A stretch of 47,165 bases of DNA from Chitinophagaceae bacterium. Lineage in GTDB: Bacteria; Bacteroidota; Bacteroidia; Chitinophagales; Chitinophagaceae. Shown piece by piece: positions 3,416 to 5,703 of this stretch. Where the stretch lies: contig CANJQU010000022.1 in assembly GCA_947476485.1 (NCBI GenBank), positions 1-47,165 on the forward strand. The letters run 5' to 3'. Position numbers and translations under genes: made by a program. The notes beneath the pieces were generated by a model. It saw nothing but the letters and a program-made list of their open reading frames with translations, had not been told where the DNA came from and did no database searches. Numbering within the stretch: position 1 is the first letter of the stretch; each line of letters begins with the position of its first letter.

Positions 3416-3811
3416 CTACTTAATAAGATCTGTTATCTCCATTTCCTTTCCCTTCAGTGCATAATACAGGTTTTGCAACTGGTGCAAATTTCTTATATCC
3501 ATGAAATGTATTACCGGCTCACCTTCGCGATTTAATAAAGAAATATAGCCTTCGCTGAATTCCAACTGATAAATGTGATCGTCGACGCCTATCCGGAATC
3601 GACCGAAATCGTTAAACCCGCAGTTTCCGGCCAATAATTCTGTAGTAATGGAAATGGGCTTTAAATCTGCAGCGTTGATCTTTACTGTTTTACCGCTGGC
3701 GGCAAGAACCTCTATTCTGCCATCGTTTGCGTCACTGTGTATTGCGGTGATCAGCGCGGGAACCCCTTCAACTTCTGCGTAATTTCCGATCCTAACTTCT
3801 AAAGCTTTCAT
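3416..3811 (-). CDS. Conserved hypothetical protein
   Basis: Unrecognised soluble protein of 131 residues from the internal start MKALEVRIGNYAEVEG; the frame is open to 3868, but the extra 19 N-terminal residues look unlike the rest. The N-terminal half resembles a small beta-barrel (RIGNY... VPALITAIHSD... IEVLAASGKTVKINAADLKP). The C-terminus has a heptad-like helix ending HQLQNLYYALKGKEMEI. I have the impression that short Bacteroidota proteins with a similar LHQLQNLYYAL ending exist, but cannot name a family. There is no signal peptide or membrane helix. The gene stands alone, its 5' side facing the 1.2-kb gene-free region. Confidence 0.6.
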   Translation of the reverse strand: MKALEVRIGNYAEVEGVPALITAIHSDANDGRIEVLAASGKTVKINAADLKPISITTELLAGNCGFNDFGRFRIGVDDHIYQLEFSEGYISLLNREGEPVIHFMDIRNLHQLQNLYYALKGKEMEITDLIK

Positions 3812-4035
3812 GCAATTCGTTTTCGTGAACAATACCGGAGTACGCTCCGGCTTTTCATTTGGGTACATAGTCTGCTATCAGGAAAGTAAAACAGTGCCAC
3901 AGAATAATATGCCGGGCAACTTCAAACCACTACATAAGTGATTTTAACAGATAAAGAAATAACAGGAATGCAGAATTGAATGGTACTTTAGCGAAATTAC
4001 CCCACATTGAAGCGTGTAGCTGTTAAAATAAAAGG

Positions 4036-4108
4036 GCGCAGGTTAGTAGTTATTTGTATTTAAGATACGACCAAGCAGCCACAAACATCAAATAGACTAC
4101 GCCTGCGC
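4036..4108 (-). repeat. 73-bp hairpin element, copy A
   Basis: Read on the minus strand it starts GCGCAGGCGTAG and ends CTACTAACCTGCGC. The ends form a 7-bp stem (GCGCAGG with CCTGCGC), then a bulge and a second 4-bp stem (GTAG with CTAC). Inside, TATTTG pairs with CAAATA. The loop carries TGATGTTT and TTGGTCGT (complement at 4083-4090 and 4067-4074). A T-rich tract (CCTTTTATTTT) follows the right arm in this orientation. Copy B has the same length, ends and loop, but a different, still complementary inner stem. Confidence 0.75.
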
Positions 4109-4130
4109 TTACTTTTAAGTGTAGCGCCTG

Positions 4131-4176
4131 TATCCCTGATGTTTAGAAAAGTTGGTCGTTTTAGAGTACCAGGATA
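4131..4176 (+). repeat. Degenerate third copy of the hairpin loop, copy A-prime
   Basis: TGATGTTT (4137-4144) and TTGGTCGT (4152-4159) repeat the conserved loop of copies A and B, here on the plus strand. TATCC (4131-4135) and GGATA (4172-4176) can close the loop. The outer GCGCAGG/CCTGCGC arms are absent. Because A and A-prime are inverted relative to each other, the two loop segments are exactly complementary and could pair into one long hairpin from 4067 to 4159. Confidence 0.5.
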
Positions 4177-4321
4177 GAACAATGAACTATATACTATCTT
4201 TCGATCTTCTTAGTGTTATTACCGCCTACATCGACGAAAATTTATTGTAAATAGCAGGGGTTAAAGATAAAGGAAAGGTGGAAAAATAAAGCTCAAAAGG
4301 GCAATATTTTCGCTGATTTTT

Positions 4322-4354
4322 TTTGTGGGGAACATAAAAATCTGATTATCTTTG
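4322..4354 (+). promoter_or_regulatory. Strong Bacteroidota-type promoter (TTTG-N21-TATCTTTG)
   Basis: TTTG at 4322-4325 and TATCTTTG at 4347-4354 match the -33 and -7 boxes of the Bacteroidota housekeeping sigma factor, with 21 bp between. It is the best full promoter match I found in the window. Transcription should begin near 4360 and run into hairpin copy B; no protein start with a plausible frame follows. Confidence 0.65.
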
Positions 4355-4360
4355 CGCCGA

Positions 4361-4515
4361 GAATTATTCCCCTGTTTTCCAAAACGGCCAATTTTAAGAA
4401 CATATGGGTAATACTTGCTTGCAGACAATGGCGCAGGCGTAGTTTTACTAGATGTTGGGTGCTTGGTCGTACCTTGAGAACAGTAATAGCTACTAACCTG
4501 CGCTATTTTTATTTC
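4361..4515 (+). ncRNA. Candidate small RNA ending in hairpin copy B
   Basis: Predicted from three observations. A near-perfect promoter ends at 4354, no usable reading frame follows, and the 73-nt hairpin at 4431-4503 is followed directly by TATTTTTATTT, as in an intrinsic terminator. The implied transcript is about 155 nt. It is not a tRNA (no T-loop) and shows no tmRNA or RNase P signatures. A 6S-type RNA is possible but cannot be shown from sequence alone. Confidence 0.35.
4431..4503 (+). repeat. 73-bp hairpin element, copy B
   Basis: Same orientation-specific layout as copy A: GCGCAGGCGTAG at the left, CTACTAACCTGCGC at the right, 73 bp in total. The inner stem is TTACT (4445-4449) with AGTAA (4482-4486), different in sequence from copy A's TATTTG/CAAATA but equally complementary, i.e. 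compensatory change. Inside the loop GGTGC and GTACC can also pair around TTGGTC. The hairpin is followed by TATTTTTATTT. Confidence 0.75.
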
Positions 4516-4657
4516 ATTTCCAGCCCACTACCCGCCCGGTAAAATCCACACAAGCCGGAACAATGCAAATAGGGGCCGATATCTTGCTTAATACTACATC
4601 AGTAAGCCCCAACGTACCTGTAAACACTGGCAGGCCGAACACCAGATTTTTTATCAT
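4514..4657 (-). other. Uncertain short open frame (47 codons)
   Basis: The minus strand encodes MIKNLVFGLPVFTGTLGLTD and continues to ...DFTGRVVGWK before a TGA at 4514, 10 bp from hairpin copy B. The plus strand of the same segment is also open (58 codons from ATG 4563 to 4739). The stretch is more GC-rich than its flanks, as coding DNA is here, but neither frame is recognised and no ribosome-binding site stands out. It may be a small peptide gene, a gene remnant or chance. Confidence 0.2.
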
Positions 4658-5067
4658 CGACTCATTCAAAACTGCGATATGTTCATTTGTCTTAGATCAT
4701 TTAAAAAAACCACGCGTTTCAGACAATATAAAGTTATAAAAAACGACAAATATAAATATCGATGAAAAATAATATAGTCGGCATGATTTTTATTTGACAA
4801 CTCCAATTTGCCTTATATTCTGTGAAATTCCAAGGAAAAGAATAAGGGCTATTTAAAGCAGGTCTGCGCCTGGTTATCATTATCGTCTGCGTATGCAGCA
4901 AAGAGTTGATGATCTGCATAGTATTTTACCCAAGAATAGTACAAGTAGACTTCCAAGCTGTTCATCTTTGCATTAGGCAGGTGGTACATTATTGCGTTGC
5001 AGACCTGAAAAAAACCAGCTTTTTGTTGTATTTTGGCTATCGTTTTAACCACTTCAATTCAATCGAG

Positions 5068-5703
5068 ATGAGACATTATTTACTGGTACTGGTTGCGTTG
5101 GTTATGTGTTCAGCGGCATATGCACAGCAGGCGGATACTGCGGCAAGTCCTGTCAGTAAAAAGAAGCATGTTAAACCTGCGAAGCCACCTGTCTGCTACA
5201 TCGGGTTCAGCTCTGGCATGAACAATACAACGGGTTTTCTTGGTCTTGATTTTAATATCCGTGTTAATAAGTTTGTTACCCTGGATGCCGGGGCAGGCCC
5301 GAGCACATGGGGGAACAAGCTCTATTTAGGCGGTAAATATTATCTTCAGAAAGCCCACAGAGGTTGGGCGCTTGCAGGCGGTTTTTCGTTCAGCTCGGGC
5401 GAGGAAAATATGCATGTAACTGCGGCCACGTATTACGGCACCGAAAGAGTGCACCTGGCGCTGCGGCCACAGACCAACGCATTTATCGGCGTATACCGCT
5501 ACTGGACCCTGGGCAAAAAATACAACCGCATTTTTGTTCACGCCGGAAAGTCGATCGCTTTACACCCGGTACGTTTTCACGAGACCTATGGCGACCCGCT
5601 TACTGAAGATGCTAAGCGGCAGATCAGGAATATGAGCCCCGGCGGCTTTTTAGGCGGATTGACGTTGGGCGGCGGGTTTTCGTTTGGATTGTACAGAAAG
5701 TAG
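5068..5703 (+). CDS. Secreted outer-membrane beta-barrel-like protein
   Basis: From the ATG at 5068 the product begins MRHYLLVLVALVMCSAAYAQ, a clear signal peptide; an upstream in-frame ATG at 4906 would put 54 unlikely residues before it. The mature part opens with a basic linker (SKKKHVKPAKPP). It then shows alternating hydrophobic and polar strands rich in glycine and aromatics (YIGFSSGMNNTTGFLGLDFN, WALAGGFSFSSG, GGLTLGGGFSFGLYRK), ending in an aromatic-containing strand as outer-membrane barrels do. At about 210 residues it would form an eight-strand-sized barrel. No specific function can be assigned. Confidence 0.7.
   Translation: MRHYLLVLVALVMCSAAYAQQADTAASPVSKKKHVKPAKPPVCYIGFSSGMNNTTGFLGLDFNIRVNKFVTLDAGAGPSTWGNKLYLGGKYYLQKAHRGWALAGGFSFSSGEENMHVTAATYYGTERVHLALRPQTNAFIGVYRYWTLGKKYNRIFVHAGKSIALHPVRFHETYGDPLTEDAKRQIRNMSPGGFLGGLTLGGGFSFGLYRK

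Follow-up and report, generated by a model that had tools for sequence, protein, structure and literature searches.

A candidate leader RNA with two alternative sets of covarying helices in Bacteroidota

The window analysed here is a 47,165-nt stretch of DNA from a Chitinophagaceae bacterium (assembly GCA_947476485.1, contig CANJQU010000022.1, positions 1 to 47,165). It contains a divergent gene pair, gene A (3416–3868, minus strand; 150 aa) and gene B (5068–5703, plus strand; 211 aa, with a signal-peptide-like N terminus), neither of which has a Pfam match; the 38 relatives of the gene B protein indicate no function. Two copies of a structured element lie between the genes in inverted orientation, copy A with gene A as the next gene in its direction and copy B directed towards gene B. 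The original prediction described the copies as 73-nt hairpins at 4036–4108 (minus strand) and 4431–4503 (plus strand) with common ends and loop words, and exactly these elements are present. As claimed, TATTTG is complementary to CAAATA and TTACT to AGTAA in the inner stems, and T-rich tracts follow both copies in their own orientation (4025–4035, minus; 4504–4514, plus). The copies share 80% identity (E = 4.8e-11), copy A being the best match to copy B elsewhere in its own genome.

The hairpin is real, but the unit is about twice as long: each 73-bp hairpin supplies the 3′ half, and a segment upstream of it the 5′ half, of an RNA measuring about 155 nt. When the genus copies were compared together with their upstream DNA, the words ACGRCCAA, CTGTTYTC and AACATC were found 5′ of the hairpin; each is complementary to a word of the hairpin loop, TTGGTCGT, GAGAACAG and GATGTT respectively. 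In the copy from genome G027, CCAGTTCTCAA is perfectly complementary to TTGAGAACTGG. Copy B and one unlinked copy are 82% identical over window positions 4370–4520, with flanks that do not match, and BLAST comparisons among unlinked copies likewise show similarity ending close to the limits of a roughly 150-bp unit with unrelated flanks. The loop, which had been taken for a conserved one on a covarying stem, covaries with the 5′ half across the family: the ‘fixed loop’ consists of the 3′ strands of helices P1, P2 and P3, which pair with the segment upstream of the 73-nt element. This covariation rules out a fixed recognition loop.

From 5′ to 3′, the RNA is composed of S1, P1, AAA-P2-(A)ATTT, P3, S1′, S2, P3′, GGT-nn-P2′-ACC, P1′, S2′ and a T-run. 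The complete predicted RNA of copy B occupies 4355–4514 on the plus strand, its start being placed after a Bacteroidetes-type −7 promoter box, TATCTTTG, located by sequence at 4347–4354. The 5′ strand of S1, TATTCCC (4365–4371), pairs by eye and with one mismatch with S1′, GGGTAATA (4406–4413). P1 is formed by CTGTTTTC (4372–4379) and GAGAACAG (4476–4483). The 5′ strand of P2, ACGGCCAA (4384–4391), stands in the AAA-P2-(A)ATTT frame, and its partner P2′, TTGGTCGT (4463–4470), in the apical GGT-nn-P2′-ACC unit (4458–4473). P3 comprises AACATAT (4399–4405) and AGATGTT (4450–4456). The outer stem of the terminator-type hairpin is built from the S2 5′ strand (4431–4442) and S2′, CTACTAACCTGCGC (4490–4503), and is followed by the T tract.

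Copy A extends on the minus strand from P1 through the T tract over 4025–4170, with the P2 strands ACGACCAA (4152–4159) and TTGGTCGT (4067–4074) and a poorly pairing P1 3′ strand, TTAAATAC (4056–4063). It looks decayed, since an exact TAnnTTTG box is absent from the 150 nt upstream (4171–4320, minus strand), the GGT/ACC frame is altered, and P1 has TTAAATAC where its orthologue in G005, with an exact P1 (GTACTC/GAGTAC), has GAGTAC. When folded as RNA, neither copy is equalled in stability by any of 200 shuffles on either strand; folding as single-stranded DNA is weaker, with 16, 6, 4 and 0 of 200 shuffles folding equally well.

A covariance-model search, which had been proposed as a check, found further copies. 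Model R1, made from 11 genus copies, has matches in 9 of 35 genus genomes, the window's own included, although 11 of its 13 matches had served to build it. In the window's own genome, a further copy (C171) scores E = 5.2e-16 with R1, which is not an independent score because this copy helped build the model, and 8.1e-5 with a second model, R2; a weaker copy (on C144) scores 0.07 with R1 and 3.0e-5 with R2. R2 covers only the 3′ half, without the P2 5′ strand, and derives from 59 of the 64 sequences that passed a diversity filter (alignment A3). R2 members occur in at least 42 of 395 Bacteroidota genomes and at least 21 of 171 genera, and copy numbers range from 1 to 6; all these counts are lower bounds, as the filters were strict and nine candidates were scored per genome.

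An exact-match pattern scan with the 16-mer GGTGCTTGGTCGTACC yielded at least 118 stretches in a species-genome collection and 15 in viral contigs. Among the matches listed, 106 of the 133 loci have the 5′ partner word upstream; the other 27 were set aside, some being chance matches and some real but cut or variant copies (L057, L092 and L125 score with R2). Some analyses used sets of 105, 104 or 99, having lost loci with flanks of insufficient length or a differing 5′ word. The 106 kept loci, among the matches listed, carry Bacteroidota-type names, including one Candidatus Kapaibacterium, with six exceptions: three viral contigs (L144, L146 and L148) and three bins with the labels Verrucomicrobia, Chlamydiae and Roseburia, possibly the result of faulty binning. 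Twelve genomes were searched individually: all six from Bacteroidota contain matches, the Verrucomicrobia-labelled bin contains one, and the five genomes of other phyla that had been reached through chance 16-mer matches give no match. Cultured carriers include Phocaeicola vulgatus ATCC 8482, Bacteroides clarus, Flavobacterium and Chryseobacterium, so the mechanism is directly testable. The P. vulgatus copy occupies NC_009614.1:2760971–2761078 on the minus strand. A second copy on the same strand lies 1.6–6.5 kb away at L066, L092, L113 and L115 (4 of 100 loci searched, among the matches listed), those at L113 and L115 being weak (E about 3e-4). At L042, L111 and L130, a second 5′ half (AAAACGACC...) is seen by eye within about 200 nt after the first copy.

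Helix P1 gives standard pairs in 779 of 840 cells in the true register (among the matches listed), compared with 33–43% at slid registers and a mean of 49.4% (maximum 54.4%) when partners were swapped; many loci come from related species, so that the cells are not independent events. Seven of the eight P1 positions show all four Watson–Crick pairs. The exact 16-mer was required in this set, which makes its invariance in the derived sets circular, and the constant apical stem carries no information. The look that is free of this circularity is the P2 test on R2 matches. The 55 copies inspected comprised 44 of the 69 matches outside the window's own genome and 11 genus copies known before R2; 53 of them have a complementary upstream word, as picked by a script that takes the best complement and has no chance control. 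The automatic match at L182 was poor, that at L166 unconvincing, and L167 and L194 failed. The 23 strings obtained reduce to 19 distinct, exactly complementary versions after removal of two doubtful rows, one shortened version and one wobble version of the window type; examples are ACTGGTA/TACCAGT, ACCGCGAA/TTCGCGGT, ACCTAGGAA/TTCCTAGGT and ATTGCCAAA/TTTGGCAAT.

The terminator-type hairpin covaries as well. For S2 with the inner and apical stems, among the matches listed, 87.8% of cells are paired against 81.0% after shuffling, and there are 81 double-change cells against 32.2; none of 500 shuffles reaches either value. Pairs with a double change number 14 against 11.4, a count reached by 13 of 500 shuffles (among the matches listed), and all these statistics are highest at slide 0. 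The helix formed with a sequence's own partner is longer than that formed with the partners of others in 97 of 99 sequences for P1, 94 of 99 for P3, 87 of 99 for S1 and 70 of 99 for S2 (among the matches listed). Stem changes keep pairing in P1, P2 and S2; the further copies found with the models and the abundance of paired changes uphold the view that selection acts on the folded form. Little unpaired sequence is conserved beyond AAA/ATTT and GGT/ACC. The stems preserve their pairing with hardly any constraint on sequence, which makes the family a clean set of natural examples of alternative RNA folding.

The sequence TAnnTTTG, which we take to be the Bacteroidetes −7 promoter consensus, occurs exactly in the 80 nt upstream at 70 of 99 loci, compared with 10 of 99 reversed stretches, and in 4 of 99 80-nt stretches starting 60 nt after the 16-mer (all among the matches listed). 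A T-run lies 3′ of the RNA at 91 of 103 loci against 32 of 100 control stretches, again among the matches listed. The original prediction left open whether the folded form is RNA or single-stranded DNA; the box upstream and the T-run downstream favour RNA. The opposite strand folds equally well by z-score and was also considered as the functional one, but the promoter box, the T-run and the gene favour the strand described here.

The reading we prefer, at a probability of about 0.5, is that the RNA is a leader that works as a transcription attenuator through four segments of alternating complementarity. In the proposed fold A, S1 would pair with S1′ and S2 with S2′ ahead of the T-run, giving two hairpins, the second of which would be an intrinsic terminator. 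In fold B, P1, P2 and P3 would join the 5′ half to the hairpin loop, and their inner extensions would consume the S2 5′ strand, giving one long hairpin in which the terminator is blocked. Because S2 covaries and the RNA usually ends in a T-run, the terminator fold and the long alternative hairpin are expected to compete, and we infer from the pairing patterns that they would exclude each other in the cell. The A-rich and U-rich flanks of P2 and the GGT/ACC around P2′ suggest that P2:P2′ may start where two apical loops kiss, with pairing then zipping outwards. The RNA would set the amount of transcription reading into the following gene, in response to a trigger that may be a protein, a ligand, temperature or the speed of transcription.

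This attenuator reading is based on two incompatible covarying helix sets, the T-run, the promoter box, a same-strand gene and the small number of boxes in between. Sequence tests find both the terminator hairpin with its T-run and the competing antiterminator helix, and both helix sets, the promoter box and the T-run are observed, as is a same-strand gene at most loci outside the window's genus. An upstream promoter followed by a promoterless gene on the same strand fits the family, but not the window's genus or gene B. An ordinary terminator alone was considered; it accounts for S2, not for the paired 5′ half. A leader peptide is not favoured either: by eye, an early ATG is frequent among Alistipes-group copies, and none was seen in the Bacteroides and window groups, so that no leader peptide common to the groups was seen.

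Predicted energies put the long fold ahead in 97 of 104 sequences, by a mean of 8.9 kcal/mol, and the two folds within 5 kcal/mol of each other in 25 of 104 (both among the matches listed); the gap is rough, since the fold A energy came from folding the two halves separately and the fold B energy from forcing P2. In window copy B the two folds are close in energy (terminator fold −45.3, long fold −41.7 kcal/mol), and its counterpart in G005 leans the opposite way (long fold −43.7, terminator fold −39.9 kcal/mol). With the long fold favoured in most sequences, most copies would be expected to read through without a trigger, which counts against an attenuator.

The helices of both topologies covary, and this would also be expected if the RNA formed a single compact pseudoknot, a loop–loop complex of its two hairpins with a ligand, a protein or another molecule of the same RNA as its binding partner. 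The recurrent AAA-P2-(A)ATTT and GGT-nn-P2′-ACC frames resemble a tertiary or binding motif. Such a structure is nevertheless improbable, because S1/S1′ join the ends of a P1–P3 helix of more than 20 bp and, on geometric grounds, sharp bends would be needed; the downstream genes, moreover, have no metabolic theme.

The gene following the RNA is oriented non-randomly in the family. The first right-hand ORF is on the same strand at 82 of 91 loci, three more loci having no ORF, and under a rule without open-ended ORFs the count is 75 of 94 (p = 5e-9), both among the matches listed. In the model-found set, 44 of 54 copies have the next ORF on the same strand (54 of the 55 copies were counted, L167 being omitted). 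The left-hand gene is on the same strand in 48 cases and on the other in 32 (among the matches listed), and in 19 against 35 in the model-found set. For the window's genus the split is even: of 10 copies, the window's own two excluded, 5 have the next ORF on their own strand.

The locus itself fits a leader poorly. About 550 bp (4515–5067) separate copy B from gene B, compared with 196 nt from model match to gene in G005, where the layout is the same; by eye, the extra DNA holds a short reading frame on the minus strand, perhaps what is left of a gene. Gene B has its own promoter-like box just upstream of its start, and this box is recognisable in G000, G001 and G004 and less clearly in G005. 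The orthologous divergent genes in G001 and G004 lie 222 and 213 bp apart with neither RNA present, while the stretch beside gene A is recognisable in all four genomes. The flanking stretches being kept where the RNAs are missing, the A/B pair was gained or lost as a unit; the box and the RNA-free orthologues show that copy B is not needed to supply gene B with a promoter. At this locus, the data from the window and its genus are what weighs most against a leader.

Three rival readings remain, in the order small RNA, single pseudoknot and mobile element. The lack of strand bias in the genus and the two relatives without the pair make the first of these the main one: a stand-alone small RNA, about 155 nt long, that acts in trans and has a promoter and a terminator to itself, and whose neighbour would be incidental or reached by leak-through only. 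The promoter box and T-run that enclose most family loci would suit it, as would copies that share only about 150 bp within unrelated flanks, the box of gene B and the even split of next ORFs in the genus (5 of 10). It is still rather unlikely for the family, where the same-strand bias (82 of 91) and the scarcity of boxes beyond the T-run (4 of 99), both among the matches listed, tie the RNA to the gene that follows; its variable helices are complementary within one molecule, and a conserved single-stranded seed was not seen in it.

The inverted arrangement of copies A and B could also be that of a mobile or DNA-level element, either a MITE-like unit or a recombination site folding as single-stranded DNA. 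The outer arms of the pair (30 nt) are 83% complementary, the orthologous intergenic regions in G001 (222 bp) and G004 (213 bp) lack the pair, and in G013 a truncated methylase ORF borders directly on the copy, the junction lying exactly at GCGCAGG. Copies within one genome, however, differ by paired changes instead of being near-identical, the promoter box and T-run recur, a recombination site needs no two alternative helix sets, and no recombinase was found among the 10 neighbouring window proteins scanned; a mobile element is thus very unlikely. A comparison with MITE and REP elements found the same divergence by paired changes and element-free orthologous sites, with no target duplication identified. 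The A/B inverted repeat was rejected as the unit, a close inverted pair being present only in G000 and G005 among the 35 genus genomes. Integron attC sites have core sites RYYYAAC/GTTRRRY at the 3′ end of cassette genes. A DNA-level cassette site of this kind was also rejected, because the linked gene lies 3′ of the element, on the wrong side; the core motif was compared by eye only.

In G013 (L161, 7811–8020), a truncated C5-methylase-like ORF ends exactly at the start of the RNA, at GCGCAGG, which also encodes part of the methylase ICAG motif. No continuation of the methylase was found among the ORFs listed beyond the RNA copy, and this copy has no T tract.

The genes downstream of the RNA are diverse, forming 86 clusters among 122 proteins, short and doubtful ORFs included. 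Signal-peptide or lipobox-like starts, scored by a home-made rule, are found in 43 of 64 downstream proteins against 110 of 578 background ORFs (among the matches listed). One cluster contains 13 TonB-dependent-receptor-type proteins, two of them checked in Pfam. Other downstream types are OmpA, BspA-type LRR, DUF4352, YpsA, an EcoRI methylase, an ion channel, ZnuA, an FGE-sulfatase, a Tae4-type effector, a type III methylase, an ECF sigma factor and response regulators; Pfam scans revealed no common function or pathway. A broader version of the attenuator reading, which we regard as possible but doubtful, is that these RNAs are phylum-wide portable switches in which intramolecular kissing would choose between terminator and antiterminator, serving as a generic gate for unrelated accessory or cell-surface genes. 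The genes so gated would include TonB-dependent SusC-type receptors, lipoproteins, a secretion effector and DNA methylases.

The claim that the element matches no known family holds for Rfam 15. At the gathering cut-off the window gives 0 matches, and 17 loci give only four tRNAs and one group II intron; in E-value mode there are 0 matches at L046 and, at the window locus, one sub-cut-off match to a Caenorhabditis snoRNA family (E = 0.46). No description of the RNA appeared among the articles listed by searches of openly accessible journal literature. If the attenuator reading is true, a regulatory RNA carried by at least one-tenth of sampled Bacteroidota genomes (at least 42 of 395) would be missing from Rfam 15, and the family would be a possible source of programmable switches.

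In attenuators of the trp and his type, four segments pair alternately as 1:2, 2:3 and 3:4, the 3:4 hairpin being followed by a T-run. The RNA described here resembles them in its alternate four-segment pairing and terminal T-run, but differs in having no leader peptide common to the groups (by eye), extra helices P1–P3 and mutually unrelated downstream genes. With riboswitches and orphan cis-regulatory leaders it shares a 5′ position before same-strand genes at most loci, a covarying fold and a terminator; unlike a riboswitch, it has little conserved unpaired sequence, no common pathway and no known ligand. In kissing antisense pairs such as CopA/CopT, loops are presented to each other and then zip into a longer duplex; here a comparable course would unite both partners in one molecule.

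The FopS/GibS RNAs of Bacteroides, according to the portion of PMC11697453 covered here, have a single-stranded 5′ seed and one terminator hairpin, act in trans and are in Rfam. On that portion of the source, they resemble the present RNA in being multi-copy RNAs of Bacteroidota that end in an intrinsic terminator, and SusC-type receptor genes recur in both; they differ in that the present RNA has a paired 5′ half (P1–P3, S1) and no Rfam match. The paired 5′ half, in place of a single-stranded seed, sets it outside this group as characterised there. The part of PMC8040213 covered here reports thousands of candidate RNAs from human microbiomes, and its supplement may hold a piece of this RNA. 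The part of PMC9723704 covered describes 64 structured 5′ regions in Flavobacterium psychrophilum.

Several recurrent neighbours were observed. Proteins of about 80 aa (MNNFNxVFxAIK...), which have no window match at E ≤ 1, are encoded near three genus copies, one or more at each (L159, 9191–9418 and 10307–10534; L164, 6973–7200 and 7459–7713; L161, 8306–8539). Eight copies (L044, L071, L075, L089, L102, L103, L116 and L140) lie upstream of one protein family, mostly 330–380 aa long with a CxxC-like motif; the two members scanned have no Pfam assignment. At Alistipes-group loci with unrelated genes, such as L027, L073 and L093, a second hairpin, GTTAAACGGTTGCC...GTTTAAC, recurs by eye between the T-run and the start codon, and its TGCCATC is the complement of GATGGCA, which stands at the RNA's 5′ end.
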